Assembly (NCBI GenBank): GCA_018818785.1
Contig: JAHIRF010000003.1
Location: forward strand, 1 to 38,460
Direction of reading: 5' to 3'
Origin: Thermoplasmatota archaeon
GTDB lineage: Archaea; Thermoplasmatota; Thermoplasmata; UBA10834
Length of the DNA: 38,460 nt
Positions 1,276-27,945 of this stretch are shown here, one piece after another; within the stretch, counting starts at the first letter, position 1, and each line of letters starts with the position of its first letter. Below the pieces are notes generated by a model. The model was not told the DNA's origin and did not search any database. It saw only the letters and a list, made by a program, of their open reading frames with translations. A program made the position numbers and the translations under genes.

Positions 1276-1285
1276 ACAGATTCTT

Positions 1286-2368
1286 CTATAGTCCTTTCTG
1301 CTCCAATCTTGCGGCAAGCGATTGGATGGAATTCAGTATGAGGCCACCGAACATCATGAGCGTGCCCACGTAGACCAGAATCGCGGCAATGATTGTCGGT
1401 CCGAAAGGAAGGTACCTTGAGTCGAAGTATGAATTAATCGAATACACCCCGAACGCCAGGCCAGCCGAAATGAAGATGAGACTCCCGACCCCGAATATCA
1501 ACAGAGGGTGTTCATCCTTTAGCTTCCGAAGGACATAATTCACCAGTTCCATGCCATGCTTGCCAGGAGTCATAGTTGAAGAATATCCGCCGTACTTCAC
1601 TGATACTGGAACCTCTACAAGTCTGAGCTTGTGCTTCTCAGCTTCGTCCAGGATCTCAAGACTCGCACTCATATTCGACTCCCTGATGTCTATCGTATCG
1701 ATAGCTGCTCTCGAGTAGGCTCTGAAACCACACTGAGTATCAGTCACTGGTTCACCGCCTGCAATCTTCCACGCCTTATTGACTACTCCAATTCCGAATC
1801 TCCTATATTTGGGAATTGCAGTCTGGTCAGCATCAATGAACCTTGAGCCAATGACTATATCTGCCTCTCCAGCAATTATTGGTTCTGTGAGTCTAGGAAT
1901 TTCTGCTGGATCGTGTTGTCCATCCGCATCCAGAACGACCATTATGCTCGTGCCATTTCCCTTAACGTACTTGAATCCCGAAGCCAGCGCAGAGCCATAG
2001 CCGACGTTCTTCGGATGCTTGATGACCATAGCACCTGATTCGGTAGCAATCCCAGCGGTTCCATCCGTGCTTCCATCATCGACAACAACAATCTCATTGA
2101 CAAAGGGCTTCACCTGACCGATGATCCGACCGATGGTATCTGCCTCATTATATGCAGGCAATACCGCAGTTATCTGCCATTGAGCACCTTCTGTCATCCT
2201 GATTGTCTCCGAATTCTCATGAACGATTTTCTCCAGAACCGCGAGGTTCCTCTTATCTACGGCGCGATTCTTAAGCTTTATCTCGGAATCATCCTTTTTG
2301 CTTAACGTCATTATGTCTGTGTCGAACAGAACCACGCAACAAGTCAGTATCTTCTCGGACCTATTCAT
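1286..2368 (-). CDS. DPM1/AglJ-like polyprenyl-phosphate glycosyltransferase
   Basis: A family-2 glycosyltransferase of the dolichyl-phosphate mannose/glucose synthase group, which loads a sugar onto a polyprenyl phosphate carrier. Visible motifs: ITAVLPAYNEADTIG, the donor site VVDDGSTDGT, DADGQHDP with its metal-binding Asp residues, GSRF, and QCGFRAY in the acceptor loop. Two membrane helices follow at the C-terminus (LLIFGVGSLIFISAGLAFGV and PTIIAAILVYVGTLMMFGGL), as in archaeal enzymes such as haloarchaeal AglJ. ATG 2368 is preferred. An in-frame TTG lies two codons upstream, and ATG 2311 or the later Met before the domain are alternatives. About 60 residues precede the catalytic domain, which is longer than usual. 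It shares a divergent promoter region with the membrane protein at 2453. A role in N-glycan assembly on the surface proteins next door is inference. Confidence 0.88.
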   Translation of the reverse strand: MNRSEKILTCCVVLFDTDIMTLSKKDDSEIKLKNRAVDKRNLAVLEKIVHENSETIRMTEGAQWQITAVLPAYNEADTIGRIIGQVKPFVNEIVVVDDGSTDGTAGIATESGAMVIKHPKNVGYGSALASGFKYVKGNGTSIMVVLDADGQHDPAEIPRLTEPIIAGEADIVIGSRFIDADQTAIPKYRRFGIGVVNKAWKIAGGEPVTDTQCGFRAYSRAAIDTIDIRESNMSASLEILDEAEKHKLRLVEVPVSVKYGGYSSTMTPGKHGMELVNYVLRKLKDEHPLLIFGVGSLIFISAGLAFGVYSINSYFDSRYLPFGPTIIAAILVYVGTLMMFGGLILNSIQSLAARLEQKGL

Positions 2369-2401
2369 CGTCAATCAGCGACCCAATGAGACTTGCCAAA
2401 G

Positions 2402-2409
2402 TTTATTAC
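2402..2409. promoter_or_regulatory. Shared divergent TATA element
   Basis: TTTATTAC on the plus strand reads as GTAATAAA on the minus strand. It sits about 50 bp before the TTG start at 2453 and about 35 bp before the ATG at 2368, so one AT-rich element could serve as TATA box in both directions. The position is inferred from the usual ~25-bp TATA-to-start-site distance in archaea. Confidence 0.4.
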
Positions 2410-2452
2410 CCCATGTGGGATTCAAAAGAAGTTGGCTGGGAGGTCCTGTGAA

Positions 2453-4063
2453 TTGCGGAAACACCAGATTCTTGGCGTGTTGTGCCTGTTGTTCATCGCA
2501 GCGATTTCCATCCGTGTGCTTCCTCTTGCGTGGGCACCTCTTCCCAACAATATCGATGGGCTGAGTGAACTCAGAGTCAGCCAAGATATTTTCCTTACTG
2601 GCCATCTCGATTTCTCGGTCGGTTCGTCTCAAATAGACAGCTATGTGGTCGACATGCCCATCCTCGGCCTGGTCATCTCATTCATATGCTCCACAATCGA
2701 CCTCGACCCGGTCACATCCACTCAATGGATCACCTCGGTCATCGGCTCCATTGCCGTAATCCTAGGATTCGCCTTGGCTCTTCACATGTGGCGGATCCAT
2801 CGCCCCTCGGTCTCGACAGGTATCGTTCTCGCGTTCATCGGCTCCTTCGTCTTCGTCACTGGATGTGTATGGAAGGAGACGCTCGGATTCGTCCTGCTCT
2901 TTCTTATCCTGTTCGCGTTCGTGAAGAGGTCAGAACCTCGATACCGACTGCTGATGACCATCCCCCTGCCATTCCTCGTCTTCACCCACCACCACACGAC
3001 CGTGGTGGCGTTCATCATACTGACCTTCGCCATCGCCTTGGATTCGATACGCTCCATCCGAAGCAGATCGATATCAAAGAACACATACGCCGATATCGTC
3101 ACGATCGCAGGTTCCTGGTTGCTCGCAGCAGCCTACTACAACTATGTCAGTCTGCCGTACCTCGACTACCTCTCCCCCGGAACCGACCTCTATCTCTACC
3201 TCGCGGTCGCCGTCTTGATGCTGCTGACCGCCTTATGGATGTCATCCCGCAGAGCGTCAATGACCAAGCTTCCATTCGGTCTGATAGTCCCTGCAATAGG
3301 ACTAGGCCTCCTCGTGATGAACTATTACACACCCATCTTCCCAGGCATTCCCGCTCCATCGGCACTCCTCATTGTCCCGATGGCCGCATACGTCATACTC
3401 ACAGCCCCTGCATGGTTGGGCGCCAAGCTCGCCTTCTCGGACATCGGTCCCTCCAAGAACCTGCTGCTAGCGCTGATCTTCGGTCCGCTCTCGTTGATCC
3501 TGTTCGGTTTCCTACGCGCGAACGATGCCACATCCCACATGATCATCTACCGCACATTCGACTTCCTCATGCCCGCCTTCGCCATCCTCATCGGTCTCGG
3601 GTTCGCGTACATGGTCAAGGGTCGCGAGAAGCTAGGCATGGCTGTCGCAGCCTCTTTCATTATCATACTCGCCTCCACGCTCCCGATCGCCTATAGCAGT
3701 CAGGAACTGTTCGGCGTGCAGAACCAGACGTACGAGTTCGAGTACGACGCGGTCGAATGGTTCTCGGAGAACGGAGTGTCATCATATACATCCGACCAGA
3801 GGCTGGGCGAGACCGGATGGCGCCTGTTCGACATAGATTACGATCGTGGGCTGCCTTACGACCTCAGGGAGGGCATCGCCCTGAACGCATCCTCATTCTA
3901 TGTCCTCGAAGGTCAATGGGCTACCAAAGGGGCCCAGGAGTACCCGTTCGGAGTGGTCCAGATAGATATGATCATCATTGATGAAATCCTGTCAACGAAC
4001 AGCGTCTTATATCTCGGTGGCTCAACGGACAACCAGCTGGTCCTCTTCAGCACGGGCCCCTGA
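2453..4063 (+). CDS. Multi-pass membrane protein, glycosyltransferase-C/PMT-like
   Basis: An integral membrane protein of 536 aa with roughly ten or more hydrophobic helices up to about residue 430, then a hydrophilic C-terminal extracellular domain of ~110 aa. The start is set at TTG 2453 because GGGAGGT at 2438-2444 lies 8 nt upstream. A longer frame from TTG 2393 would begin between the TATA box and the predicted transcript start. The first helix is followed by an acidic loop (PNNIDGLSELRVSQD), and a THHHTTVV cluster sits between later helices. This topology resembles GT-C/PMT-superfamily or oligosaccharyltransferase-like membrane enzymes, but no diagnostic catalytic motif was identified. 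Context (two glycosyltransferases upstream, giant N-glycosylatable surface proteins downstream) fits glycan transfer or flipping. Function is inference. Confidence 0.75.
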   Translation: MRKHQILGVLCLLFIAAISIRVLPLAWAPLPNNIDGLSELRVSQDIFLTGHLDFSVGSSQIDSYVVDMPILGLVISFICSTIDLDPVTSTQWITSVIGSIAVILGFALALHMWRIHRPSVSTGIVLAFIGSFVFVTGCVWKETLGFVLLFLILFAFVKRSEPRYRLLMTIPLPFLVFTHHHTTVVAFIILTFAIALDSIRSIRSRSISKNTYADIVTIAGSWLLAAAYYNYVSLPYLDYLSPGTDLYLYLAVAVLMLLTALWMSSRRASMTKLPFGLIVPAIGLGLLVMNYYTPIFPGIPAPSALLIVPMAAYVILTAPAWLGAKLAFSDIGPSKNLLLALIFGPLSLILFGFLRANDATSHMIIYRTFDFLMPAFAILIGLGFAYMVKGREKLGMAVAASFIIILASTLPIAYSSQELFGVQNQTYEFEYDAVEWFSENGVSSYTSDQRLGETGWRLFDIDYDRGLPYDLREGIALNASSFYVLEGQWATKGAQEYPFGVVQIDMIIIDEILSTNSVLYLGGSTDNQLVLFSTGP

Positions 4064-4083: not shown

Positions 4084-4095
4084 CCTTTTTCTTTT
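4084..4095 (+). terminator. T-rich transcription terminator
   Basis: A pyrimidine run (CCTTTTTCTTTT) starts 21 bp after the stop of the membrane protein. Oligo-T tracts are the usual archaeal intrinsic stop signal. It is immediately followed by an A-rich stretch and the TATA box of the next gene. Confidence 0.5.
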
Positions 4096-4107
4096 GAAAA
4101 AGGAGGG

Positions 4108-4116
4108 TATAAATAA
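4108..4116 (+). promoter_or_regulatory. TATA box of first giant surface protein gene
   Basis: TATAAATAA is the best archaeal TATA box in the window. The expected transcript start is near 4137, which rules out the upstream TTG at 4094 and supports ATG 4181. The 5' leader would be about 45 nt and contains the hairpin at 4144-4163. Confidence 0.7.
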
Positions 4117-4143
4117 TCCACAGATGGATGACTCGCCGATAAA

Positions 4144-4163
4144 CTGCCAGGGGGACCTGGCAG
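4144..4163 (+). promoter_or_regulatory. 5'-leader RNA hairpin, CTGCC/GGCAG type (first copy)
   Basis: Arms CTGCCAGG (4144-4151) and CCTGGCAG (4156-4163) form a perfect 8-bp stem closed by a GGGA loop. It begins about 32 bp from the centre of the TATA box, so it would lie within the first nucleotides of the mRNA. A hairpin with the same CTGCC/GGCAG base and the same TATA spacing precedes the paralogous gene at 9128. Confidence 0.5.
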
Positions 4164-4180
4164 AAGACCGGTGTTTGAAC

Positions 4181-7100
4181 ATGATCCCCCGCAAACTATC
4201 AGCATACGTGCTAGTCCTACTGATGACCACCACTGCGTTCGCCTTCGTATCGTGGCCCGCAGGCGCCTCGGAGGGCGGCGCGGACGCATACGGCTATACT
4301 TGGACGGACTCCAACTCACCAAACCCCACCGTGTCGTTCAACTGGATTGACATAAATTCCACCGGCACGGACGTGGGCTTCTACAGCTACTTCGAAAATG
4401 ACGTCTCATCGGAGATCAGCATAGGGTTCAGCTTCCCGTTCTATGACGATGTCTACACGAGCGCATATGTGTCCACGAACGGCTTCATATCGTTCACATC
4501 GGCCTCATACGAATACTGGAACTATCCCATCCCCGACTACTACGACCCCAACGCCTTGGTCGCACCATACTGGGACAATCTGGTCGTCTTCTACCCGGAC
4601 TATAACTCCGGTGCCGTGTTCTATGAGACCATCGGAACTGCCCCTGACCGTCAATTCGTGGTCCAGTGGGACGAGATAACCAGGGGATACAACTACGACC
4701 GGATGACATTCGAGCTCATCCTGAACGAGACGGGAGAGATATGGTTCCAGTACCTCACCATGAGCGGTCTGGACGGCTCCTCCGCGACCATAGGTATCGA
4801 GAACTCGGACGGTACTTATGGGTCCGAATACGGATACAACGAGGCGGTCATCACGGACGGCCTCGCCATCATGTTCGAGCAGGGGCCGATCGGCTTCGGC
4901 CCCGACCAGCAGTCGTACGGTGATCCAGGCGATTATGTCTCCTACGACCTCAGCATCAGGAACAACGGTCTGACCACGGAATCCTATGATATCGAACTCG
5001 ATTGGAGCGATCTAGGATGGAACGTGGAAATGTACGATGCCGTATATTCGGGTCTGGCGGACAACAACGGGAACAGCCTCCCGGACACCGGGGACCTGCT
5101 CCCAGGCGAGGAGTACTGGATGATCGTCGAGGTACTCATCCCGGATACGCCGACCTCGTTGTTCGAGACCACCGTGCTGAAGGCATCAGCGTACTCCGAC
5201 CCGACCGTGAACGACACCGCGACCCTGGTGACACAGTCGGCATCCATCGTCTACGTACCACCCCACAGCGATTCCGTATACGATAGCGACTCCGATGGCG
5301 ACTACGATTACCTCGTCGTGAACATATCCATATGGTCGTTCCAGGACCAATCAGCGTATCTGTACTTGTCCCTTTACTCGCCGTCTTTGTACTACTTGTT
5401 TGGGAGTACAGACTATGTGTATGTGCTAGAAGGTTTCTCGAACATCACCTTGTACCTGCCCAGTGAGAATATCTATGACTCTCATGAGAACGGGTCGTTC
5501 TATGTGTCGCCTTTCCTGTACGATGCCGAGTGGAACTCCATCGGCTATTCGGACTTCTACACATCGTCCTATAACTACGACGACTTCGACCCTCCAGGGG
5601 TGCTGTTCAGCACGCCCTATTCGGATCACGGGCTCGATATCGACGGTGATTCATACTACGACGAACTCGTTGTGAACATAACGCTGCAGGTCTTGAAGGA
5701 TGGTTACTACACCATCGAGGTGTATGTGGACGATTATTACGGTGACTACATCACCTATTTGACGGATGGCTGGGACCTATCGACAGGGGAGACCGTGGTG
5801 CAGCTGTCCATCCCAGGATCGGACATATATGATTCAGGCCTGGATGGTCCGTACAACCTGTACTTGTACCTGTACGACGACTCCAACAGCACGGACTCTG
5901 ATTTCTATGAGACCGGCGCGTATAGCTGCACCGACTTCGACGGTCCTGACATAATGTTCGCGCCTCCGCATGAAGACTACGCGGTGGACACGGACGGCGA
6001 CTTCTACTTCAACGAGGTCGTGATCGAGGTGTACATCGACTGCCTGTCTGCCGGGTACTACGACCTGGTGATATACATCTATGACTACTGGTACTACGAG
6101 TTCGACTATATCGACGAGACGCTGTACTTCGATGCTGGCGTGTCTACCTACTATGTCGTGCTCGATTCCTATTCGATCATCACGAACGGCGTTAGCGGAG
6201 AGTTCTATCTGGAAATGCACCTTGCAGATTCTTCCACTTTCGAGGAACTGGACTACAACTACTACTCCACCGGCTACTACTACCTGAGCAACTTCGACCC
6301 TCTTGGGGCGTACTTCGAATCGCCGCATGACGATTATGGCAGGGACGACGACAGCGACGGACTGTACGACTACCTCGTGTTCGCCATCAATGTACGCGCA
6401 TCGTACACTGGCTGGTACGTCATAGAAGCTTACATCTACGACCCTGACTGGAACTACGAATTCATGACCGTAGACATCTACCTCGAGGAGGACGTGTTGA
6501 CGGTCGTGGAACTGGAAGTGGATTCCTATCGGGTGTGGGAAGCTGGCTATGACGGCTATTGGTATGTCTACCTGGACATGTACGACTACTACTCATACGC
6601 GTACTACGATTCAGACTACTACTACACCGACGACTACTACATGGTGGACTTCGACCCGCTGCCCGTGGTGTTCAGCTATCCGCACTACGACTACGCGCTG
6701 GATGTCGATGATGATTATCTGTACGACTATCTCATAGTGGACGTGCTGCTCGAATGCTACGAGAGCGGCGAATACACCCTGTGGGCGGATCTGTACGACC
6801 CATGGGGATACTACATCACCACCGTGTCGGTGACTGAGAGCTTGTCCATCGGGACCAGGACGGTCGAGCTCACATTCGACGGTTGGCTCCTGGGGATGAG
6901 CGGTGTAAGTGGTTACTACTATCTCGAGATGTGGATCGAGGACGAGGGCGGATACACCCTCGATTACGACGAATACTACACGGACGACTACTACTACTGG
7001 TACGATTTCGCGGGGATCCCAGCCGAGTTCTCCCCGCCGCACTCTGACCACGCAGTCGATTCAGACGGCGACTTGTTGTACGAGTTCCTCGTGGTGACCG

Positions 7101-8983
7101 CATCCGTCGAGTCGTATGTGTCCGGTGAGTACCTCGTCTATGGAGTGCTCTATGACGAGTACGACGACCCGATCGATGTGGTCTTCGTCGAGGTCCAGCT
7201 CGATGTCGATGTCTACGAGGTAGAGCTGTGGTTCGATGCGTGGACCATAGCGGTAGCTGGTGGCGATCCCTGGTATGTCAACCTCGTGTTGGCCGATTCG
7301 AACGAGAACACCATGGACTCAGAGAACTACTATCTCGGCGCGACATACTACAGCACCGATTTCGACCCGACCGTCCCATCGATGGAATCCGGCTGGGCTT
7401 ACGAGCCACCGGTCGTGGACGGTGCAGTGTCCGCAGATGAATGGTTCGGCGCGGGCGTCATCGATTTCGTCATCGTCGATGCGATGAACGAGGTCGCGGC
7501 CAAGATGTACATCCTGAACGACGATGCCAACCTCTACATCCTGATAGATGCGACCGGGGACACGACGGAGACATACGGCGATGGCGCTTCGGTAGCCTTC
7601 GACACCGATGACGATACTATCGCATCGGACGGTCGCGAAGACCAGTTCGTGCTGGAGGCCACCGAGTTCGGGACGGACTCCTATCACCTGGTCTTCGACT
7701 CGTACTATTGGGACTGGATCACCGATTGCGCGCCATTCGACGAGCTCCTCACGGACCATGACGGCCTCGCGGGAGCAATAGGCTTCAACTCCAGCCCGGA
7801 CTCGTCGACGGCGCACAGGATATACGAGTTTTCGATACCGCTGGCCCTTCTGATGCTATCGCCAGGTGATCCGATCGGCTTCGCCGCCTTGAGCAGCATG
7901 GACCCCGGAGTGTACGACGCCTCGGATAGCGTGTACAGCACATGGCCTGCGTTCTTCTGGGACGAACCGGAACTGGACATGTACGGCACTCTGACATTGT
8001 CGGAGGAGCCCCCGCTCACCACGGTCGATCTAGCAGGCACCGAAGGTGAGAACGGCTGGTACATCTCAGATGTCGAGGTCACCTTGACCGCTGCCGGAGG
8101 CACTGGCGGAGTGAACTCGACCTATTACTCCCTCGATGGAGGTGCGTGGACCGAGTACACTGATTCGTTCACGGTCACCGCAGATGGAAGTCACACGCTC
8201 CGATACTACTCTGACGACATGGCGGGCAACGAAGAGCCTGTGCGCACCGTCAAGATCGGAATAGACAGGCATGCGCCGACTGCGACCGCGGCACCATCCG
8301 GAACCGTGGGAGACAATGAATGGTACACTTCCGGGGTGTCTGTCGTCCTTGCAGGTTCGGACCCATCCGGCTCAGGTGTTTCAGTCCTGCGCTACAGGAT
8401 TGATGGCGGAGCGTGGGTGAACTATACGTCTGCGATAAGCATCAGCGATGATGGCGAGCACACGATCGAGTTCTTCGCGATAGATGTCGCGGGGAATGAG
8501 GGGAGCACGAACGAGCTGACCTTCAATATCGATACTGTCGCGCCTGAGACGACCGCAACGGTGTCAGGTTCGACCGTTACGCTCACGGCATCGGATGGTA
8601 CGAGCGGCGTGAATGTCACCATGTACAGGATAGACGGTGGCGAGTGGGTGGTATACACAGCGCCGTTCGAAGTGACCGGTTCTGGCAACCACACGGTCGA
8701 GTTCTACTCTACCGACGACGCAGGCAATGCCGGCGAGATCGAGCTCATATATCTCGAGAACGCCTCGGGCATCTTCGGTCTGGAGTCAACCGTGTTCTTC
8801 CTGCAGATGGCTTTGCTGGCGATGATCGTCGCTATCATCGTGATAGTCCTCATCGTCATGCGCAACAAGAGGAAAGGCGCAGGGCCAACTCAGTTCCACG
8901 ACTCGTCGATACCAGCCGATCAAGTCGACGGCAGCCAACCAGCTGGACCCGATCAGGAGTTGCCGCCTCCCCCAGAACAATAA
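4181..8983 (+). CDS. Giant Asp/Tyr-rich repeat surface protein, paralogue A (1600 aa)
   Basis: An exported, membrane-anchored surface protein. Order (residues from ATG 4181): signal peptide 1-28 ending WPAGAS; nidogen-like domain about 30-235 (STNGFISF, APYWDNL); NEW3/DUF11-like adhesion module about 236-355 with NNGNSLPDTGDLLPGE; six tandem ~118-aa repeats 356-1065; a CBM9/DOMON-like domain about 1066-1275 opening VDGAVSADEW; three Ig-like domains about 1277-1525 with the DGGxW and DxAGN signatures; one membrane helix about 1537-1560; then a basic stop-transfer NKRKG and a proline-rich cytoplasmic tail ending ELPPPPEQ. Several N-x-S/T sequons (NSTG, NETG, NITL) could be glycosylated. The TATA box at 4108 makes the upstream in-frame TTG impossible as a start. 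It is a tandem paralogue of the next gene. Possible roles are an S-layer or matrix component, or an adhesin; none is proven. Confidence 0.85.
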   Translation: MIPRKLSAYVLVLLMTTTAFAFVSWPAGASEGGADAYGYTWTDSNSPNPTVSFNWIDINSTGTDVGFYSYFENDVSSEISIGFSFPFYDDVYTSAYVSTNGFISFTSASYEYWNYPIPDYYDPNALVAPYWDNLVVFYPDYNSGAVFYETIGTAPDRQFVVQWDEITRGYNYDRMTFELILNETGEIWFQYLTMSGLDGSSATIGIENSDGTYGSEYGYNEAVITDGLAIMFEQGPIGFGPDQQSYGDPGDYVSYDLSIRNNGLTTESYDIELDWSDLGWNVEMYDAVYSGLADNNGNSLPDTGDLLPGEEYWMIVEVLIPDTPTSLFETTVLKASAYSDPTVNDTATLVTQSASIVYVPPHSDSVYDSDSDGDYDYLVVNISIWSFQDQSAYLYLSLYSPSLYYLFGSTDYVYVLEGFSNITLYLPSENIYDSHENGSFYVSPFLYDAEWNSIGYSDFYTSSYNYDDFDPPGVLFSTPYSDHGLDIDGDSYYDELVVNITLQVLKDGYYTIEVYVDDYYGDYITYLTDGWDLSTGETVVQLSIPGSDIYDSGLDGPYNLYLYLYDDSNSTDSDFYETGAYSCTDFDGPDIMFAPPHEDYAVDTDGDFYFNEVVIEVYIDCLSAGYYDLVIYIYDYWYYEFDYIDETLYFDAGVSTYYVVLDSYSIITNGVSGEFYLEMHLADSSTFEELDYNYYSTGYYYLSNFDPLGAYFESPHDDYGRDDDSDGLYDYLVFAINVRASYTGWYVIEAYIYDPDWNYEFMTVDIYLEEDVLTVVELEVDSYRVWEAGYDGYWYVYLDMYDYYSYAYYDSDYYYTDDYYMVDFDPLPVVFSYPHYDYALDVDDDYLYDYLIVDVLLECYESGEYTLWADLYDPWGYYITTVSVTESLSIGTRTVELTFDGWLLGMSGVSGYYYLEMWIEDEGGYTLDYDEYYTDDYYYWYDFAGIPAEFSPPHSDHAVDSDGDLLYEFLVVTASVESYVSGEYLVYGVLYDEYDDPIDVVFVEVQLDVDVYEVELWFDAWTIAVAGGDPWYVNLVLADSNENTMDSENYYLGATYYSTDFDPTVPSMESGWAYEPPVVDGAVSADEWFGAGVIDFVIVDAMNEVAAKMYILNDDANLYILIDATGDTTETYGDGASVAFDTDDDTIASDGREDQFVLEATEFGTDSYHLVFDSYYWDWITDCAPFDELLTDHDGLAGAIGFNSSPDSSTAHRIYEFSIPLALLMLSPGDPIGFAALSSMDPGVYDASDSVYSTWPAFFWDEPELDMYGTLTLSEEPPLTTVDLAGTEGENGWYISDVEVTLTAAGGTGGVNSTYYSLDGGAWTEYTDSFTVTADGSHTLRYYSDDMAGNEEPVRTVKIGIDRHAPTATAAPSGTVGDNEWYTSGVSVVLAGSDPSGSGVSVLRYRIDGGAWVNYTSAISISDDGEHTIEFFAIDVAGNEGSTNELTFNIDTVAPETTATVSGSTVTLTASDGTSGVNVTMYRIDGGEWVVYTAPFEVTGSGNHTVEFYSTDDAGNAGEIELIYLENASGIFGLESTVFFLQMALLAMIVAIIVIVLIVMRNKRKGAGPTQFHDSSIPADQVDGSQPAGPDQELPPPPEQ
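5246..7375 (+). repeat. Six tandem ~118-aa coding repeats
   Basis: Repeat starts at 5246, 5600, 5951, 6308, 6665 and 7022, giving periods of 354, 351, 357, 357 and 357 bp. Each unit opens with a (P)PHxDxxxDxDxDGxxDxLVV block, has a central G-x-Y and L-Y-D block, and ends with DxxxYxTxxYxxxDFDP. The D-x-D-x-D-G pattern resembles calcium-binding loops such as EF-hand, dockerin or TSP type 3. Units 3-5 are exceptionally rich in Tyr and Asp. I recognise no named domain for the full unit. Confidence 0.85.
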
Positions 8984-9002
8984 ACCTCTCGATTTATTAT
9001 CA

Positions 9003-9038
9003 CCGGGCCAAGAACGGCCCGGCAGCTTCTCTTTTCTC
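9003..9038 (+). terminator. Hairpin terminator after paralogue A
   Basis: Arms CCGGGCC (9003-9009) and GGCCCGG (9016-9022) form a perfect 7-bp stem with loop AAGAAC, followed by a pyrimidine-rich tract (CTTCTCTTTTCTC). It lies 19 bp after the stop codon. The descending arm and following T-rich tract resemble those of the structure after paralogue B. Confidence 0.6.
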
Positions 9039-9055
9039 GATGTTCCCAAAGAGCG

Positions 9056-9064
9056 TTTTAATAT
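9056..9064 (+). promoter_or_regulatory. TATA box of paralogue B
   Basis: TTTTAATAT lies upstream of the second giant gene, with a predicted transcript start near 9086. Together with the terminator at 9003-9038 it indicates that the two paralogues are separate transcription units. Confidence 0.55.
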
Positions 9065-9091
9065 CAATGAACCCGATTCACTCATTCGTAA

Positions 9092-9109
9092 CTGCCCCTA
9101 ACGGGGCAG
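9092..9109 (+). promoter_or_regulatory. 5'-leader RNA hairpin, CTGCC/GGCAG type (second copy)
   Basis: Arms CTGCCCC (9092-9098) and GGGGCAG (9103-9109) form a perfect 7-bp stem with a TAAC loop. As in paralogue A, it begins about 32 bp from the TATA centre. It ends just before an ATG at 9110 and 18 nt before the preferred ATG at 9128, so it could affect ribosome access. Confidence 0.5.
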
Positions 9110-9127
9110 ATGTGGATGGGTGTCGAT

Positions 9128-12100
9128 ATGATTCTGCGAAAGCTGCTAGCAATCGCGATTGTGACTGTGATGACCGCCACCGTGTTCTCCGTGATCTCGA
9201 TCACTGGCAGAGCGGAAATGGGTCCTGTTGACGCCTACGGCTACTGCTGGTTGGATTCCAACGCGCCAGACCCGACGGTCCCCTTCGACTGGATAGACAT
9301 AAGCGGGACCGGGACCGATACCGGGATCGACGGTGACGATGACTATGGCGGCCCGTTCCCGATAGGTTTCGATTTCTCCTATTACGGCAACACATACGGG
9401 ATGTTCAATGCCTCGTCGAACGGTTTCATCATGTTCGATGGCAGCGGCTACTATCTGTTCAATTACGAGATACCGAACATATTTAACCCGAACAACATAG
9501 TTGCCATCTACTGGGACGATCTGTATGTGGACCATACATACAACCTCGCCTCGATACGCTACGAGACCATAGGGCTGGCGCCCGAGCGGCAGCTGGTCGT
9601 GGAGTTCGAGAACATCTGCGAGCTCGGCTCGTCCGACCTCATGACGTTCGAGATAATCCTCAACGAGACCGGGGAGATATGGTTCCAGTACGGTCCTATG
9701 AACGGCAATATGGCCTCAGATGCCACCGTAGGGATCGAGAACGACGACGGAACGATGGGCTCCGAATACTCCTACTATTCCGATTCACTCAGTGACGACC
9801 TCGCGATCAGATTCTCCGCTGTGGACTTCTTCATCGGCCCAGAACAGGAATCCGAGGTCATCCCAGGCGATTATATCGAATATCTGCTCACAGTGACAAA
9901 CGACGGCCTGGCAACTGATTCCTTCGATATCACTTGTCTCTCGAGCGCTGATTGGGTGATCGAGCGCCTCGACGCCATTTTGAACCCGCTCGGGGACGAT
10001 AACCTGAACGGCATCCCGGATACAGGAGATATAGCTCCTGGTTCGAGCGTCGATATAATCATACGCGTGAATGTGCCTGGGACCCCGGCATCTTTCGAGG
10101 ATACGACCACGGTCTTTGCCACATCATACGAAACCTCCTCGATCGCGTCGGTCTCCCTGACCACTACCGTGCTCGAAGCGGTTTTCGCACCGCCCCATAG
10201 CGATTTCGTCAACGATACGGACATCGATGGCCTGTTCGACACGCTCTCGTTCAATGTATCTTTGGAAGTATACATCCCAGGTGCCTATGGTATCGACGCG
10301 GTGCTCTCCATACCGCCCTATGACCATGTCGCATCGGCTGGTGCATGGGCGGAATTGGAGGCCGGTCCTCATATATTCCGTCCATCATTCGATGCGAGGA
10401 TAATCAACTCGTACGAGATCGACGGCCCTTACACGGTAGAATTCCTACTGTATTCCTCAGCTACGGGCAACTTGTCCACAGACAGCTACATCACCTCTGC
10501 ATATTCGTGGACCCAATTCGATCCACCGGAGATCAGGTTCAACACACCTTTCGCAGATTATGGATACGATAGCAATGGGGACACCCTCTTCGAGGATTTG
10601 GTCCTCGAGGCCACGGTCGATGTCATCTTGGAAGGCGACTACGAAATGCACGCCTCCCTATGGGATGTCTATGACTCCCATGTCGATTGGCTGACGAACT
10701 ACACTCATCTCACGGTAGGCACCCATGTGGTCGAGTTCAGGTACGATGGTTCAGAAATCTGGCATGACTACCGCGACGGGCCGTTCGAGGTGTACCTGTA
10801 CGCGTACAACGACGCGCTGATCAGGTTGGACCAGTACGAATACACCACCACCTCATACACCTACGACGAGTTCCAGCCCTCCGGAACTCTCTCACCGCCC
10901 TATTCAGACTACGGATATGATGACAATGCCAACGGATTGTTCGACTATCTTGTCGTGGAAGTGCCAGTCGATGTGTCCGTGGGTGATATTTACCTATTCG
11001 ATGCTGACCTCTCAGATGCCGGAATGGCCGTGGTGGACTACTATTCAGGCTATGTTTCGCTGGATGCAGGGGCACAAGTGGTCGAGCTCTGGTTCGATGG
11101 AGAGATCCTGAGAGCTAACGGCGTGGACGGGAATTACACGGTGGACTTCTTCTTCATGGATGATACCTACAGATACATCGATGGCGATTCCTACGAGACG
11201 GATTGGTACGGATACAACGAGTTCGAAGGTTCGGCCCGTATCATCCCTCCACATACCGAGTACACGATCGATGCAGACAGCGACGGACTGTACGACAGCT
11301 TCGTGATCACGATCGATCTGGAGGTCTCCACTGCTGGTTACTACCTCCTCTATGTCTTCCTATATGATAGCTATGGGACGATCATAACGTATGTTTCCAA
11401 TATCGCGTACTTTGCGATAGGTTTCGCGAGCATCGACGCGATCTTCGCGGGATTTGTCTTCCAGAGTGGCGGCTTTGATGGGCCTTACGAGGCATATGCG
11501 GAACTGACCGATCCGTACGCTGGCACGACGATTGATGAATACGGTTTCTTCACCGAATCGTACGCGCACGATGATTTCGAGACGCCTTCCGAATTGACGC
11601 CGCCACACACGGACCACGGTTACGACGCCAATGATGACGGGTTCTATGACTATCTCGTCATCGAGGCAACCGTCAACATCACATCCGCAGGCGAGTACAC
11701 CATCGAGGGATGGTTGTGGGATGAATGGGGATCCTTTGTCTGCATCGCGAGTGACACGGCCTCCCTGGACCCCGGCGTCCAGACATTCGACCTGCGCTGC
11801 GATGGTCAATCGATTCATGATTCTGGATTGAATGGCCCGTATACTGTGGATCTCTACCTCGAATACGAAGGATGGGGCTACACAGACTTCGAAGAGTATG
11901 TGACGGGTTCCTACACATACGACGAGTTCCAACCACCACCGTCATACTTCTCGACCACCTTCTGGGACTTCCCTGTCGATGCCACTGATGACGGTCTATA
12001 CGAGTACCTCGTGGTCGTGGCAACGGTAGAGGTCACCGTGTCCGGAGAATACACGGTCTCGGCGGACATGTACGACCCATACTGGTACTACGTCCAATGG

Positions 12101-14599
12101 ACTGAGAACACGAGCTATCTCGAAGCTGGCATTCAGGAGGTGGAACTCTGGTTCTACGGCCCAGGGATTCGTGCATCCGAGAGGGATGGCTATTATCGTG
12201 TCGATATGTCTCTCTACGATGCCGAGATGGACGCACTGGACGACCATCTGTACTATACGGCCTCCTATTCCTGGGACGAGTTCCAATCCGCTGCATTGTT
12301 CTCCCCTCCTCACAGCGACCACGGCTATGACGAGAACGACGATTCGATCTATGAATACCTCGTGATCGAAGTCAACATTGAAGTGTTCATGAGCGACGAG
12401 CTCTCGGTCCGAGTGTACCTCTTCGACGAGTACTGGAATACAATCGCCTATGTCGAGACGACCCAGTACTGCGAGGAAGGATTCGTGGTGATAAGCGTCT
12501 ACATCCCAGGCTGGGATATACTGGAGAACGGCATCGACGGACCGTACTATGCGGATCTATATCTCTACCACGATGGCGATTTGATCGAGAGCGGCTACTA
12601 CACGACATCCGATTATGCGTTCAACGAGTTCTCGCAGATACCCGCGCAGTTCGGGGCGCCGCACTCCGACTATGGATACGACGATGACGGGGACCTGCTG
12701 TACGAATATCTCGTGGTCGAGGTCCGTGTGAATGTGACCATCGAAGGGACATATCTCATACAAGCGGAGCTGAGAAGCTTCACTTTCGTCTCCATCGACT
12801 CGGTTTTGGTCGAGGCGACGCTCTCCGAGGGGATGCAGACGGTCGAGGTCATGTTCGATAGCTGGCTTATCGCGGCGCATGATATCGATGGCCCATACGA
12901 GGTGAGGCTGAACCTGTTCATGGATGACTTGACCTTCTTGGACTACGAGACGTATGAGACGGAATCTTACTTGGCATCTGAATTCGACCCTGCCGTCCCG
13001 ATGATATATTCGTACTGGGCGTCGGAAGAGCCCACGATAGACGGTGTCTATTCTGCGGGCGAGTGGGAGGACGCAACCTGTGTCTCCTTTGTCTTGGTCG
13101 ATCCGTTGAGCGGGCTCGACTTGGTCATGCTGGTCCTCAACAACGGGACCCATCTATTCGTATGCTACGATTTCGTCGGGGATCTCACAGAGGACGATAA
13201 TGATGGCGCTATCGTCTGTCTCGACACCGGGAACGATGGCATCCTGACGCCCGAGCACGAGGACAGATTCATAATCATGGGCGAAGGCTCACAGGTCCAT
13301 CAGACATATGAGTTCTATAGCACATGGAGCACCCATTGCTCTCCATTCGACCCACTCCTGCCATACCATGATGGCCTCTGGGCCGCAGCGGGGTTCGGAT
13401 CGAGCGATCAGCTCGCGGATGACCACAGGGTGTATGAGTTCTGCATACCGCTCGACCTGATCCTCGCCTCCGCAGGCGACATCCTCGGGTTCGCGGGCGC
13501 CGCTCTGGATCGTTCAACCGAGACATACGGTTACTGGCCTCTGATCGATGAGATGCTTTCCACGCCATCGTTGTATGGGGACCTCGTGCTGTATTCCAGC
13601 GCTCCCCCCGCAACGACGCTCGACCTGTCCGGCACCGAGGGTTCGAGTGGATGGTACACATCCGCGGTCGAGTTCACGCTGACCTCAGAAGACGATGATG
13701 AAGGCGTCAACTACACACGTTACAGGCTGGACGGCGGCGAATGGTCGGATTATACATCTGCCGTAACGGTGTCCGCGGAAGGTTCGCACGCGCTCGAGTT
13801 CTATTCCGTAGACCTCGCTGGGAACGCGGAGAACATCCAGTCGGCATCAATCAATATCGACATGACTGCACCAGAGGCGACGGCCGCTCCTTCAGGGACC
13901 TTGGGTGAGAACGGCTGGTACAGATCGGATGTCACGATCTCTCTCCAAGGTGACGACGGGACCATTGGCTCCGGCATCGCAAACTTCACCATTAGGATCG
14001 ACGGAGGACCTTGGGTCGACTATGCCTCCTCGTTGAGCATATCAGAGGATGGCGTGTTCCTGCTGGAGTACTACTGCACGGATGTCGCGGGCATATCGGC
14101 CGATATCCAGGAGCTGACCGTGAAGGTGGATGCGACGGCTCCTGAAACAACGGCATCCGTGGATGGCTCGACTGTGACCCTGTCCGCGACGGATCCAACC
14201 AGTGGCGTGCTGATGACGAAGTACAGGGTCGATGGCGGGGAGTGGATGAACTACGCCGTGCCATTCGAGGTTCCAGGCTCGGGCAACCATACAGTCGAGT
14301 TCTATTCCATAGACAACGCGGGCAACGCGGGTGACATCTCCCTACAGCTCCTCGACAACGGCTCGGGCGGGACCACAGTGTTCGGCGTGGACTTGTGGAC
14401 GTTGATCATCGTCCTCCTGATCCTCGCGATCATTGTTGGCATCTCCATCCCGCTCATCTACGGCATGAGGCGGAAGGCGAAGGTGTCGGATGCGAAGGCG
14501 GTCATGAAGGATGCAGTGAGCCCCATAGCGCAGCTGTACGACGAACCTTCACCGCCACCGCCCCCTGCGGACGAGACGCCACCTCCGAAGAAGGATTGA
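9128..14599 (+). CDS. Giant Asp/Tyr-rich repeat surface protein, paralogue B (1823 aa)
   Basis: It has the same architecture as paralogue A: signal peptide 1-27; nidogen-like domain about 32-236 (SSNGFIMF, AIYWDDL); NEW3/DUF11-like module about 237-351 with NLNGIPDTGDIAPG; eight ~118-aa repeats 352-1289; CBM9/DOMON-like domain about 1290-1493 opening IDGVYSAGEW; three Ig-like domains about 1494-1742 (DGGEW, DNAGNAG); membrane helix about 1755-1779; then basic MRRKAK and a tail rich in PPP. ATG 9128 aligns with the start of paralogue A (MILRK versus MIPRK). ATG 9110 abuts the leader hairpin and would only add six residues. Two more repeats than paralogue A indicate unequal recombination or slippage since duplication. 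Surface-layer, adhesive or polysaccharide-binding roles are plausible inferences. Confidence 0.85.
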   Translation: MILRKLLAIAIVTVMTATVFSVISITGRAEMGPVDAYGYCWLDSNAPDPTVPFDWIDISGTGTDTGIDGDDDYGGPFPIGFDFSYYGNTYGMFNASSNGFIMFDGSGYYLFNYEIPNIFNPNNIVAIYWDDLYVDHTYNLASIRYETIGLAPERQLVVEFENICELGSSDLMTFEIILNETGEIWFQYGPMNGNMASDATVGIENDDGTMGSEYSYYSDSLSDDLAIRFSAVDFFIGPEQESEVIPGDYIEYLLTVTNDGLATDSFDITCLSSADWVIERLDAILNPLGDDNLNGIPDTGDIAPGSSVDIIIRVNVPGTPASFEDTTTVFATSYETSSIASVSLTTTVLEAVFAPPHSDFVNDTDIDGLFDTLSFNVSLEVYIPGAYGIDAVLSIPPYDHVASAGAWAELEAGPHIFRPSFDARIINSYEIDGPYTVEFLLYSSATGNLSTDSYITSAYSWTQFDPPEIRFNTPFADYGYDSNGDTLFEDLVLEATVDVILEGDYEMHASLWDVYDSHVDWLTNYTHLTVGTHVVEFRYDGSEIWHDYRDGPFEVYLYAYNDALIRLDQYEYTTTSYTYDEFQPSGTLSPPYSDYGYDDNANGLFDYLVVEVPVDVSVGDIYLFDADLSDAGMAVVDYYSGYVSLDAGAQVVELWFDGEILRANGVDGNYTVDFFFMDDTYRYIDGDSYETDWYGYNEFEGSARIIPPHTEYTIDADSDGLYDSFVITIDLEVSTAGYYLLYVFLYDSYGTIITYVSNIAYFAIGFASIDAIFAGFVFQSGGFDGPYEAYAELTDPYAGTTIDEYGFFTESYAHDDFETPSELTPPHTDHGYDANDDGFYDYLVIEATVNITSAGEYTIEGWLWDEWGSFVCIASDTASLDPGVQTFDLRCDGQSIHDSGLNGPYTVDLYLEYEGWGYTDFEEYVTGSYTYDEFQPPPSYFSTTFWDFPVDATDDGLYEYLVVVATVEVTVSGEYTVSADMYDPYWYYVQWTENTSYLEAGIQEVELWFYGPGIRASERDGYYRVDMSLYDAEMDALDDHLYYTASYSWDEFQSAALFSPPHSDHGYDENDDSIYEYLVIEVNIEVFMSDELSVRVYLFDEYWNTIAYVETTQYCEEGFVVISVYIPGWDILENGIDGPYYADLYLYHDGDLIESGYYTTSDYAFNEFSQIPAQFGAPHSDYGYDDDGDLLYEYLVVEVRVNVTIEGTYLIQAELRSFTFVSIDSVLVEATLSEGMQTVEVMFDSWLIAAHDIDGPYEVRLNLFMDDLTFLDYETYETESYLASEFDPAVPMIYSYWASEEPTIDGVYSAGEWEDATCVSFVLVDPLSGLDLVMLVLNNGTHLFVCYDFVGDLTEDDNDGAIVCLDTGNDGILTPEHEDRFIIMGEGSQVHQTYEFYSTWSTHCSPFDPLLPYHDGLWAAAGFGSSDQLADDHRVYEFCIPLDLILASAGDILGFAGAALDRSTETYGYWPLIDEMLSTPSLYGDLVLYSSAPPATTLDLSGTEGSSGWYTSAVEFTLTSEDDDEGVNYTRYRLDGGEWSDYTSAVTVSAEGSHALEFYSVDLAGNAENIQSASINIDMTAPEATAAPSGTLGENGWYRSDVTISLQGDDGTIGSGIANFTIRIDGGPWVDYASSLSISEDGVFLLEYYCTDVAGISADIQELTVKVDATAPETTASVDGSTVTLSATDPTSGVLMTKYRVDGGEWMNYAVPFEVPGSGNHTVEFYSIDNAGNAGDISLQLLDNGSGGTTVFGVDLWTLIIVLLILAIIVGISIPLIYGMRRKAKVSDAKAVMKDAVSPIAQLYDEPSPPPPPADETPPPKKD
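10181..12996 (+). repeat. Eight tandem ~118-aa coding repeats
   Basis: Units start at 10181, 10532, 10886, 11237, 11591, 11942, 12296 and 12644 (periods 348-354 bp). They share the PPHxDxGYDxxxDGLYxYLVVE opening and the YxTxSYxxDEFxP ending with paralogue A. The copies are divergent, so this is an old tandem array. The terminal Asp block here is usually DEF rather than DFD. Confidence 0.85.
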
Positions 14600-14854: not shown

Positions 14855-16696
14855 ATGGGGTGGCCCCCTACACGCAGTGAAGTGTCGGCTGAAACAGCCT
14901 ACACGGGCATCACCGTTCTCTGTGTGGATGATGAGCCGATCTTCCTAGAGCTGATGAAGGCATACTTGACGCGGGACGAAAGACTGACCGTCGAGTGCGA
15001 ACCATCTCCCGAGGTAGGGCTAGAGAAGCTCAAGACACACAAGTACGACGCGGTAGTCAGCGACTTCGACATGCCCGTCATGAACGGAATAGAGCTCCTG
15101 AAGTCGATCCGAGCGATGGGCTTGGACATACCGTTCATACTGTTCACGGGAAAAGGTAGGGAATCGATCGCAGTGGATGCGCTGAACAACGGTGCCGATT
15201 TCTACATTCAGAAGAGCACGGATGCCAAGTCCCAGTTCGAGGAACTCGACCATCTTATCCACAACCTGGTCGAATCAAGACGTGCCAAGGCTGCTGGAAG
15301 ACAGCACCTCGAGCTATTGGAGCGGGTGATGGACACCAGCATCGTCGGCGTGCTCGCATTCGATAGAGACTTCCGCATAAGCATCTGGAACCCCGGGATG
15401 GTGCGGATCACCGAGCTCAGCGAGTCGCAGGCCCTCGGGCGGAACGTGTTCGACATGGTCCCTTCTCTGGACACATCCGATCAGGACGCTCGCATCAAGG
15501 GGACGATCAAGGGTGAGGCGACCGAGGCGGACGATGTCCCATTCTTCGTGCCTGGCTCCGGCAAGGATCTCGTAGTTGAGCTCTACAGCTCCCCGATCTA
15601 CGATGCCTTTGGGAATATAGTGGGCGGCCTGTCCGTGGTGATAGATCGCACCAAGAGGCATGACGCCTTGGATGCCTTGGTGATGACGAGCAGGAAATAT
15701 TCCACCCTCTTCCAGCATCTTGGAGACCCCGTGTTCGTCACCGACCTGAACGGTTGCATCATGGAAGTGAATGATGCGGCGACCGAGCACCTGGGATACT
15801 CGAGGGGCGAGCTCCTCGGAATGACGATCTCATCATTCACCACTCCTCAGTTCGCCATGACGATCACCGTGAGGGTCCGCACCCTACTGAGGCAGAGTCA
15901 TGCCATCTACGAGAGCGAGCACATCCGGAAGGATGGCTCAGTCGTTCCGGTCAGGATCAGCAGCAGGGTGGTTGACTTCGGCGGTGAGAGCGCGATCCTG
16001 TCCACGGTCAGGGACGTGTCGCATACAAAGAAGACCCAGGCGGATCTTCAGTTGGCACAGAAGAAGCTCGACCTGCTGGGCAGGATCACCAGACACGATA
16101 TCAGGAATCACGTGACGATCCTTTCGGCGAATCTGTTCCTTATCGAGGAGAGCCTCAAGGATTCTTCGGTGGGGAAGTACTTGGAGAGTGCGAGGGCGGC
16201 TTACATGAGGATCGTCACTCAGCTCGACTTCGCAGGACAGTATCAGAAAACAGGCACGTTGGAGCCCGCATGGGTAGACTTTAAGGACGCCCTGGCCAAA
16301 GCGATGGTCTCGGTCGATTTGGGCACTGTGCAGGTCGAGGAAGATCTGGGCGGACTCGAGATGCTCGTCGATCCGATGTTCGAGATGGTATTCTCCAATC
16401 TCATCGTCAACTCGCTCAAGCACGGTGAACGCGTCAAGAACATCGTCATATCCCACGAGTTCGTCGGGGACAGTCTCGTAGTCGTCTATGAGGACGACGG
16501 CATCGGGATAGACCTCGCGGTGAAGGATAGGCTGTTCGAGCTGGGTGGGGCGAGAGCGGGCGGCATGGGTATGTTCCTGATAAAGGAGATACTGGGGATA
16601 ACTGGCATATCCATCCTCGAGAACGGAGAGCCTGGCAATGGCGTGCGGTTCGAGATGATCGTGCCCAAGGGAAGGTTCAGGCAAAAGACAATATGA
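14855..16696 (+). CDS. Receiver-PAS-PAS histidine kinase, cytoplasmic
   Basis: A hybrid sensor kinase of 613 aa without membrane segments. The receiver domain (about 17-135) has the acidic pair in CVDDEP, phospho-acceptor Asp70 in SDFDMPVMNG and the Lys of FTGKG. PAS 1 (about 145-265) and PAS 2 (about 280-395) follow, the latter with VTDLNGCIMEVNDA. The dimerisation helix carries the archaeal-type H-box RHDIRNH with His414. The ATPase domain has the N-box NLIVNSLKHGE, the G1 box EDDGIGI and a G2 box GGMGMFL. A receiver at the N-terminus suggests it takes phosphate from, or is tuned by, another kinase; the membrane kinase at 24483 is a candidate only by proximity. It is convergent with the third giant surface protein (42-bp gap). 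The PAS ligand is unknown. Confidence 0.9.
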   Translation: MGWPPTRSEVSAETAYTGITVLCVDDEPIFLELMKAYLTRDERLTVECEPSPEVGLEKLKTHKYDAVVSDFDMPVMNGIELLKSIRAMGLDIPFILFTGKGRESIAVDALNNGADFYIQKSTDAKSQFEELDHLIHNLVESRRAKAAGRQHLELLERVMDTSIVGVLAFDRDFRISIWNPGMVRITELSESQALGRNVFDMVPSLDTSDQDARIKGTIKGEATEADDVPFFVPGSGKDLVVELYSSPIYDAFGNIVGGLSVVIDRTKRHDALDALVMTSRKYSTLFQHLGDPVFVTDLNGCIMEVNDAATEHLGYSRGELLGMTISSFTTPQFAMTITVRVRTLLRQSHAIYESEHIRKDGSVVPVRISSRVVDFGGESAILSTVRDVSHTKKTQADLQLAQKKLDLLGRITRHDIRNHVTILSANLFLIEESLKDSSVGKYLESARAAYMRIVTQLDFAGQYQKTGTLEPAWVDFKDALAKAMVSVDLGTVQVEEDLGGLEMLVDPMFEMVFSNLIVNSLKHGERVKNIVISHEFVGDSLVVVYEDDGIGIDLAVKDRLFELGGARAGGMGMFLIKEILGITGISILENGEPGNGVRFEMIVPKGRFRQKTI

Positions 16697-16738: not shown

Positions 16739-19700
16739 CTAATCCTCAGGCGGTGGCGGGAGCTTCGGTTTCCTAACGACCCAATCCTTGTCGCCCTTCT
16801 TGTCATGGGAGTGGTTCTTGGCCTTGCTGTGGTCGTTGACGAACCCTTCCAGTAGCAGGCCAATGCCCGCGAAATCGACATCCATGTCTCCTGTCCAGTT
16901 CTCTATCCTCTTGCGGTAGATCTTCTCGATCTTCACCAGGAACTCCTCGAGCGCCCGCTCTATATCGTCTGGGGCGTCACCAGTGAACACCACCGCGACA
17001 TAGGTCATCTTGCCCCTCTGGACCAGCACCTTGTACTCCGCGAACCCGAAGCTCTTTAGCGAGTCCTGGCTGGATGCCATCGAGTCCTCCACGAAATTCA
17101 GGACAGCAGTGAGCATGCCGCTCAGGACGTCCTCGTCGATCTCGCCCTGCCGCCCTTCGATGGCCCTGCCGATGAGGAAGCCGTCGTTGTGTATGAGCAT
17201 CATGTCCCTGATCTCGAACGGCCGCTTCCGCATGCCCATGGCTATCATGAAGAATCCCAGCGCGCTGCCGCTCATGATGAGCATCGCGACGAACATCCAC
17301 GGGTTCTCGTCCAGCGATGAGGCGCTCTTGTACACGGTTATCCTGAGCATAGTCGAGTCCGTGAGCCCCTCAGAGTCGGCCACTATGACGATTATCCCGA
17401 GATTCACCGAGCTGTCGCTCCTGAGGATGTAGTTGACAGGGAACTCTATCATCAACACGCTCCCAGTGACGGTTATGTACTCGCTGCCCTCGCCCGTGAC
17501 CGTGAAGACCATATCGAACATGTCCGTGTCTGGGTCGTACACATACGGGCTCAGGTCGAACGGCAGCCTCTCGCCCACCTGCAGAGTGGCATTGGTCGGT
17601 ATGTACATCATGGGCGCGTCGGGTACCGATATGATCGTCAGTTCGGTGGTCGACTCCGCGATGCCTCCTGTGGAGTCCGTTGCCCTGATCGTGAACATGA
17701 CCACGCCGTAGAAGTTGTTCTCAGGGTGGAAGATCACGACCCGGTCCTCCTGGCCGTCGTTGCCGACCTCCATGGTCACTTGCTCCGAGGATGAGAACAC
17801 ATCGTACGCCAGGGTCTCCTGGCCCTCGTAATCGTAGAAGTAATCCTCTATGGAGCCCGTGGCTGGGAACATGGTGGGTCTGTCCTCGTGGAACGTATGT
17901 TTGGGCAGTGGCAGAGCCGTGGGCGGCGAATCATCCGATATGGTCACATTGATCATGGTCCAGTCCAACAACTCTCCGTCGCTGACCGAGATGTTCAGCT
18001 GCACCGTCTCGCCCAACATCTCCGTCGGATACAGGATGGACAGCACCAGACCTACCGCGACCGCATGGTAATCATCGGTCTGCACGTTAAGCGCGTCCAG
18101 ATTGTTGTCGGGATCGGTTATGTAGCGCGTGAGGTCGAATTCGTACCTCTCGCCAGCCTTGACCGTGAGGTTCGGGACATCCTCTATCTTCGGAGGCTGG
18201 TTCACGTGCAGCACCTTCACAAGGGCGACGCTCTCGACCCTCGCACCGCGCGGGTCGGTCGCCTTGAATATGACATACTCCTCACCGTACCAGTCGAACG
18301 GCGCGAAGAAGCTCACCTCGTTCCCAGGATTGATCTCGAGGGACACGTGTTGGTAGCCGTATGCGTAGTACAGCATCTCATCGTCAGGGTCTATGAAGTA
18401 ATCGTCAAGGTCGAACAGGTTTAGCGAACTCTCCCCCTGGTACAGCTCCACCGTCGGGAGCACGTCCAGCGATATAGGGACGTTATCGTCCGTCACCGAC
18501 ACGAATATCGTGGTCGATGCGGACAGGTCCCCGTCAGTCACGGTCACGAATATAGTCTGGATCGTGCCGTTCAGCACCATAGGGTACTGGATGGCCAGAG
18601 TCTGCTTCTCCACATCCACATGCTCTTCGCTCATGTAGTCCACCCTGACAGTCAGCTCGTCGAGAGTGTTGTCCACATCATGGATGTAGTACTTCAGGTT
18701 GTAAAGGTAGACCATGTCGTAGTGCACGACCAATGGGTCTATATCGTCGATCGTCGGGCCGTCGTTGACCGGGGTGATGTTCAACTTGACCGTGGTGGAC
18801 CCACTCAGACCCTCCTGGTCCACCAGGAACAACTTGAGGTCGTTCACGCCCCACGCATCTGCCTTCGGAATGAATGTAATGACCATGTTGCCCGTCTTGT
18901 TCTCTCCGGAGACGGTGACGAGCGATTCGTTCGTTGTGTACCATCTGAGTTCGCTCGTCAGGTGATACTCATCATAGATGTACGATGTGATATCCAACTC
19001 CCAGCTCTCGCAGTCCTCCTCCTTGTCCTGAACGGGCATGGATCCGGTGAATGCCGGGTTGTGCGCGGTCCTGACAACAGATATCTCCTTGGACGTGGAG
19101 ACGCCGTTCGTCGCGACGGTGATCTCGCCTGTGGTCGCGTATTCGCCAGCGGTGAATGTGACCGATGACCCTGTCGTCGAGCTCAACGATCCGATGGAGG
19201 GATCGACGGACCATGTGAAACTGGCGTTGGAGATCGTGTTACCATACCCATCGTAGGCCATCGCGCTGAACGAATTTGATGAGTGTTCGAAGACCTCGCT
19301 GATGTCGGGTGATATGACTATAGTCGCGACAGGCCCGGGGACGACCTGTATGAGGTCGCTGTATCCATAGATGCCCTGTGCGGACGCCCGTATCCTGATG
19401 GTCTCGGCCATGAAGTACCTCTCGTTCGCGACGGTGACATACCCGCCGCTCGTGATGTACGCGGTGCCCACCGTCAGCACCCCTGACGCGGCACCTAACC
19501 CATAACTGTCGGTCGCCGTGAGGTTCACAGGCCCGCTCCAGTGGACCATCGTGGTGTTCGAGCTGTCCTTCGCGTATATCATCACTTCGAAGTACTGCCC
19601 GGCGACGACCTTCTCCGGAGCAACGACATACATGCCTATCAGAGCGGTCCCGAAGACCGCCGTGACGGAATCGACGGTAGGCGTGGAGAGGGTGTCATAT

Positions 19701-23280: not shown

Positions 23281-23364
23281 CTATCCAGAATAATACTAGT
23301 GCAAGTGTGGTTCGAGTTCTTGGCGGCCGTTCCGCCTGGACCTCGCGAATGTGAGGCAGTCTCC

Positions 23365-27941: not shown

Positions 27942-27945
27942 AGGC

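Follow-up and report, generated by a model that had tools for sequence, protein, structure and literature searches.

Tandem Ig-like domains with a putative calcium loop as a candidate stalk in two giant surface proteins of a Thermoplasmatota archaeon

Two adjacent genes of a Thermoplasmatota archaeon encode giant paralogous surface proteins built around the same tandemly repeated unit of 117-119 aa. We consider it likely that these units are Ig-like domains homologous to Pfam DUF4785_3rd, each with a Ca2+ loop, and that six or eight of them line up in an extended stalk accompanied by a NIDO-like tip, a CBM9-like domain and a membrane anchor. The window, i.e. the whole stretch of DNA analysed, comprises 38,460 nucleotides (positions 1 to 38,460 of contig JAHIRF010000003.1, assembly GCA_018818785.1). 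The two proteins and the domains flanking their arrays are located as follows, with the evidence for each in parentheses.

4094..8983, + strand: giant surface protein 1, 1629 aa, 6 units (ORF, domain searches, TM)
4259-4879, + strand: N-terminal NIDO-like domain of protein 1 (Pfam NIDO over cut-off, 27.4 bits, cut-off 25)
7388..7993, + strand: CBM9-like domain of protein 1 (about 40-41% identity to the protein 2 copy, fold match via that copy)
9110..14599, + strand: giant surface protein 2, 1829 aa, architecture of protein 1 but with 8 units (ORF, domain searches, TM)
9215..9814, + strand: N-terminal domain of protein 2, NIDO-like counterpart (51% identity to the protein 1 copy)
9815..10183, + strand: DUF11/NEW3-like Ig domain of protein 2 (weak Pfam match, below cut-off)
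13010..13594, + strand: CBM9-like domain of protein 2 (top Foldseek match 7nwo/7nwn, pLDDT 55 model)
13604..14359, + strand: three OmpL47-type Ig-like domains of protein 2, approximate outer limits (NCBIfam NF047446, E=2.5e-45)

According to the ORF calls the two genes lie on the same strand, 126 bases apart; the start codon of protein 1 is uncertain, an alternative internal Met being present at aa 30. Protein 1 runs from a signal segment through the NIDO-like domain, a weakly matched DUF11/NEW3-like domain, the six units, the CBM9-like domain and three OmpL47-type Ig domains (NF047446, E=1.9e-53) to a TM helix and a Pro-rich tail. In both proteins the signal segment is hydrophobic, and the C-terminal membrane helix is followed by a short tail rich in Pro. 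The initial annotation had described two paralogous giants with six versus eight repeats and flanking domains matching one-to-one; both arrays were indeed found, and the percent identities listed above for the N-terminal and CBM9-like domains bear out the correspondence of the flanks. The single span proposed for the repeats, 5246-12996, has array limits that are right within about 13 bases, but it also takes in the non-repeat region 7388-10189, which comprises the end of protein 1 beyond its array, the gap between the genes and the beginning of protein 2. The domain after the array gave no match to the Pfam CBM9 sequence profile and is therefore called CBM9-like rather than assigned as a CBM9 member. 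The name comes from the low-confidence model of the protein 2 copy, for which the CBM9 modules 7nwo/7nwn (E=9e-5) are among only three Foldseek matches under 1e-3; ethylbenzene dehydrogenase chain C and cellobiose dehydrogenase come next.

Several other genes in the window may be mentioned here. Directly upstream of protein 1 (211-4063) lie two GT2 glycosyltransferase genes and a gene for a multi-TM-looking protein with no Pfam match, and the GT2 genes would fit a locus for surface glycoproteins. On the - strand, 16739-21727 encodes another giant surface protein, the third (1662 aa). Besides a membrane helix and a cytoplasmic domain it carries a DNRLRE/CBM96 domain (DNRLRE E=2.6e-19) together with GH43_C2-like and cadherin-like tandem-95 domains, and the LPPPPED at the end of its tail resembles the LPPPPEQ of protein 1. 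Short cytoplasmic tails rich in PPP/PPPP recur among unit-bearing surface proteins of several genera, being found in proteins 1 and 2 and in the relatives L060, L061, L063, L065, L067, L073 and L086. When the window's genome was scanned with a simple pattern, such a Pro-rich C-terminal tail turned up at only four gene ends, and the reversed control gave 0. Further along, a receiver-PAS histidine kinase gene lies at 14855-16696, and at 23299-26417 the genes for a Peripla_BP_6 ligand-binding protein and a HAMP histidine kinase overlap, these two being likely a sensor pair. In the region 26481-30462 a corrinoid protein gene accompanies two others, one for an MttB-family methyltransferase (486 aa) and a second for a methyltransferase-like protein (477 aa); since both methyltransferase frames are open without an in-frame stop, they are probably of the non-pyrrolysine kind.

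The units themselves were delimited by unit alignment together with a genome profile search; unit 5 of protein 2 is backed by the model and the DUF4785_3rd match (residues 19-84) as well, and unit 6 of protein 2 by the model.

5258..5611, + strand: protein 1 unit 1
5612..5962, + strand: protein 1 unit 2
5963..6319, + strand: protein 1 unit 3
6320..6676, + strand: protein 1 unit 4
6677..7033, + strand: protein 1 unit 5
7034..7387, + strand: protein 1 unit 6
10190..10543, + strand: protein 2 unit 1
10544..10894, + strand: protein 2 unit 2
10895..11245, + strand: protein 2 unit 3
11246..11599, + strand: protein 2 unit 4
11600..11953, + strand: protein 2 unit 5, the most typical unit and first half of the AlphaFold model
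11624..11650, + strand: putative calcium loop of protein 2 unit 5, residues 9-17 (DANDDGFYD), between strands 4-8 and 18-27 (sequence and predicted secondary structure)
11954..12304, + strand: protein 2 unit 6
12305..12655, + strand: protein 2 unit 7
12656..13009, + strand: protein 2 unit 8

The array thus occupies aa 389-1098 (nt 5258-7387) of protein 1 and aa 361-1300 (nt 10190-13009) of protein 2. Pairwise identity among the 14 units is 22-40%, and D9, Y105 and F110 are invariant in all of them. A profile of the unit run against the 1.97-Mb genome returned exactly these 14 places with E values of 1e-29 to 1e-42, and no further copy elsewhere in the genome even at E<=10. At the DNA level no tandem repeat was found in the arrays and the longest word common to two units is 21 bases, indicating that the arrays and the duplication are old.

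The unit had been presented as novel, a claim that a wider survey shows to be overstated: at E<=1e-5, 57 of 300 genomes in the class Thermoplasmata have it, as do 22 of 91 genera (at E<=1e-3, 10 of 19 in the family), and the named relatives are Thermoplasmata/Euryarchaeota MAGs, one Calditrichota MAG and Cellulomonas cellasea. The contig scan for relatives worked with a five-unit alignment containing the conserved GVDGPY stretch, while protein 2 as query found none. Other genera of the family share the architecture of proteins 1 and 2. Elsewhere in the class, different giant proteins, with PKD, MG2, Y_Y_Y or Big domains, carry the unit close to their N-terminus, and in the Calditrichota relative it is fused to a predicted alpha/beta hydrolase. 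The unit is a mobile building block. On one contig of 19.5 kb (L072), three consecutive unit-bearing genes lie on one strand, one of them coding for 3421 aa with MG2, Y_Y_Y and PKD-like domains.

Comparing copy number between related genomes, a check that had been proposed at the outset, gave five to eight units across family members and the window: full-length family members have 5, 5, 6, 6 and 7 units and a contig-cut member of the same genus 7, next to the 6 and 8 of the window. In a tree of 57 units, in which many deep branches are unresolved, the units of protein 1 group by position with those of L062, L063 and L064 (unit 1 with support 100/99, units 3/4 with 99/98, the last unit with 100/95), and the five-unit arrays of L060 and L065 likewise pair by position. 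The units of protein 2 do not pair with those of protein 1, and the two paralogs have no unit-to-unit alignment. An additional unit in L063 and L064 branches as sister to the entire unit 3 group; as this unit is, by the tree, older than their split, its absence from the six-copy arrays of the window and L062 would reflect a loss. This is the one gain or loss event that could be identified (6 versus 7 copies). The idea that the array expands and contracts is thus right in that copy number differs between relatives, but orthologous arrays match unit by unit and array turnover is slow.

An AlphaFold2 model of units 5 and 6 of protein 2, built with 41 aligned pairs, is all beta and forms a chain of two Ig-like beta-sandwiches with a mean pLDDT of 95.6; the relative orientation of the two units is less certain, given a pTM of 0.75. 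At E<=1e-3 Foldseek matched the model to 259 PDB chains. GH2 enzymes and transglutaminases head this list, and the Legionella DUF4785 structure 4kh9 occupies ranks 7 and 12 (E=1.3e-6 and 1.5e-6, prob 1.00), a match that is not specific because many other Ig-like domains match too. VIA-align, whose rows mainly cover the second unit (113-224), gave Z up to 11.9 over about 102-107 residues, and the neighbours in both searches are the sandwich domains of GH2 glycosidases, transglutaminases and the DUF4785 protein 4kh9.

Judged from sequence profiles, the core of the unit is homologous to Pfam DUF4785_3rd (PF20943). Against this profile the whole of protein 2 scores 43.9 bits (E=2.8e-11), over the curated cut-off of 24.5 bits, and the two-unit fragment 26.5 bits; relatives from Thermoplasmata (L071, L086, L088) and Calditrichota (L092) are likewise over the cut-off with 25-55.6 bits. 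Single units score lower, 18.7 bits for unit 5 of protein 2 alone, with two of the 14 window units matching at E<=1 and 15 of 60 units at E<=0.05 (best 5.2e-8), and protein 1 gave no match at E<=1 in Pfam hmmscan. A PF20943 search of the own genome returned nothing at E<=0.001, but its controls were also silent, so that it carries no weight against hmmscan. In sequence searches of the PDB a 14-unit query gave a chance match only; a 60-unit query had 4kh9 as top match at E=0.26, which is suggestive only. The Pfam match aligns about residues 17-95 of the unit to profile positions 13-95 (residues ~19-84 in unit 5), and all HMM matches begin at profile position 13-15, just past the Asp loop; both this loop and the C-terminal TxxYxxxDF end lie outside it. 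NCBIfam offered no clear family for the unit and PHROGs one weak match only; viral contigs and phage and plasmid collections gave no sequence match, and a viral fold search generic matches only, with low TM-scores. As a prior description, the repeats of Adindla et al. 2004 (RIVW, LGxL, LVIVD, LGFP) are ruled out by their length of 42-54 aa, as given in the part of PMC2447325 drawn on here. The initial annotation's statement that no named domain matches the whole unit therefore holds to the letter, since the loop and the C-terminal end are uncovered, but the profile search it suggested places the core in a described domain.

The Asp run that opens the unit fits, by its sequence, the known Dx[DN]xDGxxD calcium loop. 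All 14 window units have D9, [DNT]11, [DN]13 and [DNE]17 at the ligand positions, and in the model residues 9-17 form a loop between two strands. Of 117 units from the window and from relatives in many genomes, 110 keep all four ligand positions and the other seven each lose only one. According to Rigden et al. 2011 (PMC3123361), Dx[DN]xDG, in which ligands at positions 1, 3 and 5 are joined by an acidic residue further on, is well established as a calcium loop in at least 16 structural contexts; it occurs in many folds, mostly extracellular, and accepts N, S or T at position 3. Since the conserved ligand positions match this motif, calcium binding is likely, and the loop most likely binds one Ca2+ per domain. 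The proposal that a calcium loop is repeated 14 times is accordingly sustained as far as the four ligand positions go, but the Gly of the motif (position 6) is present in only seven of the 14 window units (53% in the wider set). Together with the few units elsewhere that lack one ligand, this might suggest a degenerate site, metal-free under physiological conditions, in an array acting as a passive spacer; such decay is improbable in view of ligands kept throughout the window at only 22-40% identity and of the substitutions that known loops accept at position 3.

Another explanation starts from the acidity of the two ectodomains, which is extreme (D+E 276 vs K+R 20 in protein 1, 310 vs 32 in protein 2), and from the Asp and Tyr content of the units, 22-31% of residues. 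The repeats could then primarily make a surface coat, S-layer-like or polyanionic, or reflect salt or metal adaptation, and the Asp loop would just be part of a general acidity. We find this hard to credit because the acidity sits at fixed positions: alignment columns 9, 15 and 19 are 99-100% D/N/E over the 117 units against a median of 13% per column, and the strict loop pattern occurs in 105 of them versus 1.2 expected from composition-preserving shuffles (maximum 5 in 200). Moreover, the bacterial relatives retain the loop.

We favor a model in which each unit is an Ig-like beta-sandwich whose first two strands are connected by the Dx[DN]xDGxxD loop, which would hold one Ca2+. Six or eight units in a row, joined by short proline-containing linkers, would make an extended stalk placed between the NIDO-like N-terminal tip on one side and the CBM9-like domain, the three OmpL47-type Ig domains and the C-terminal membrane helix on the other. 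By folding or stiffening the domains, Ca2+ would keep the tip away from the membrane, where it may bind a surface or a glycan. The array is best read as a stalk, by analogy with known adhesins, and its role is probably adhesion or glycan binding. It might also be the repeat domains themselves that bind a ligand, lectin-like, with avidity set by copy number: sandwich domains of this kind often serve as accessory modules in carbohydrate enzymes, and Tyr, Trp and Asp are abundant in the units. Yet the solved domains that match best are not lectins but connector Ig-like domains from GH2 enzymes, and the binding-type folds (NIDO-like, CBM9-like) sit outside the array, which makes a lectin function of the units unlikely. 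It is also improbable that the units are a distinct, unnamed archaeal family of calcium-dependent Ig-like domains, employed in the manner of cadherins, in which the loop lets the giant proteins switch between collapsed and extended states with external calcium.

The surface proteins of the many uncultured Thermoplasmata are poorly annotated, and a profile of the unit would allow a recurring stalk module to be annotated in roughly one in five of the sampled genomes. The unit also yields a simple prediction, calcium-dependent folding, and our results suggest that Pfam DUF4785_3rd be extended towards archaea.

Adhesins are well known to use Ig-like calcium domains in tandem, and the arrays leave this general picture unchanged; they are best read as a widespread form of a known surface stalk rather than a new system, with a unit that as a whole is unnamed. 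The OmpL47-type Ig-like domains (NF047446) and CBM9 correspond to flanking modules of proteins 1 and 2, not to the repeat unit. The unit shares its sandwich core and Ig-like fold with DUF4785_3rd, the third domain of Legionella NttD/lpg0956 (PDB 4kh9), its upstream putative calcium loop and its C-terminal end lying outside the Pfam match; the Legionella protein is secreted as a type II substrate (PMC6617341), whereas here 6-8 tandem copies occur in a membrane-anchored archaeal protein. With the Dx[DN]xDG loops, e.g. those of 'calcium blades', the unit has in common the 1-3-5 spacing and a later acidic residue beyond two intervening ones, but its loop lies between the first two Ig-like strands, a context that finds no mention in the part of PMC3123361 drawn on here, the full list being in its supplement. 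The RTX adhesins serve as a functional comparison only, as the archaeal proteins lack an RTX C-terminus: Pfam and NCBIfam searches detected no RTX family, and in place of RTX nonapeptide repeats and a type I secretion signal the C-terminus has a membrane helix and Pro-rich tail. The extenders of MpIBP, MhLap, AhLap and SiiE, which belong to another sequence family and are anchored differently, are tandem beta-sandwiches of ~100 aa between a distal tip and a membrane anchor, and Ca2+ renders the chain rod-like so that it projects the binding tip (PMC7493085). The archaeal arrays resemble them in that tandem beta-sandwiches separate a membrane anchor from a presumed binding tip at the far end; in the RTX extenders Ca2+ is located in the inter-domain linkers, whereas in the archaeal unit it is predicted within each domain.
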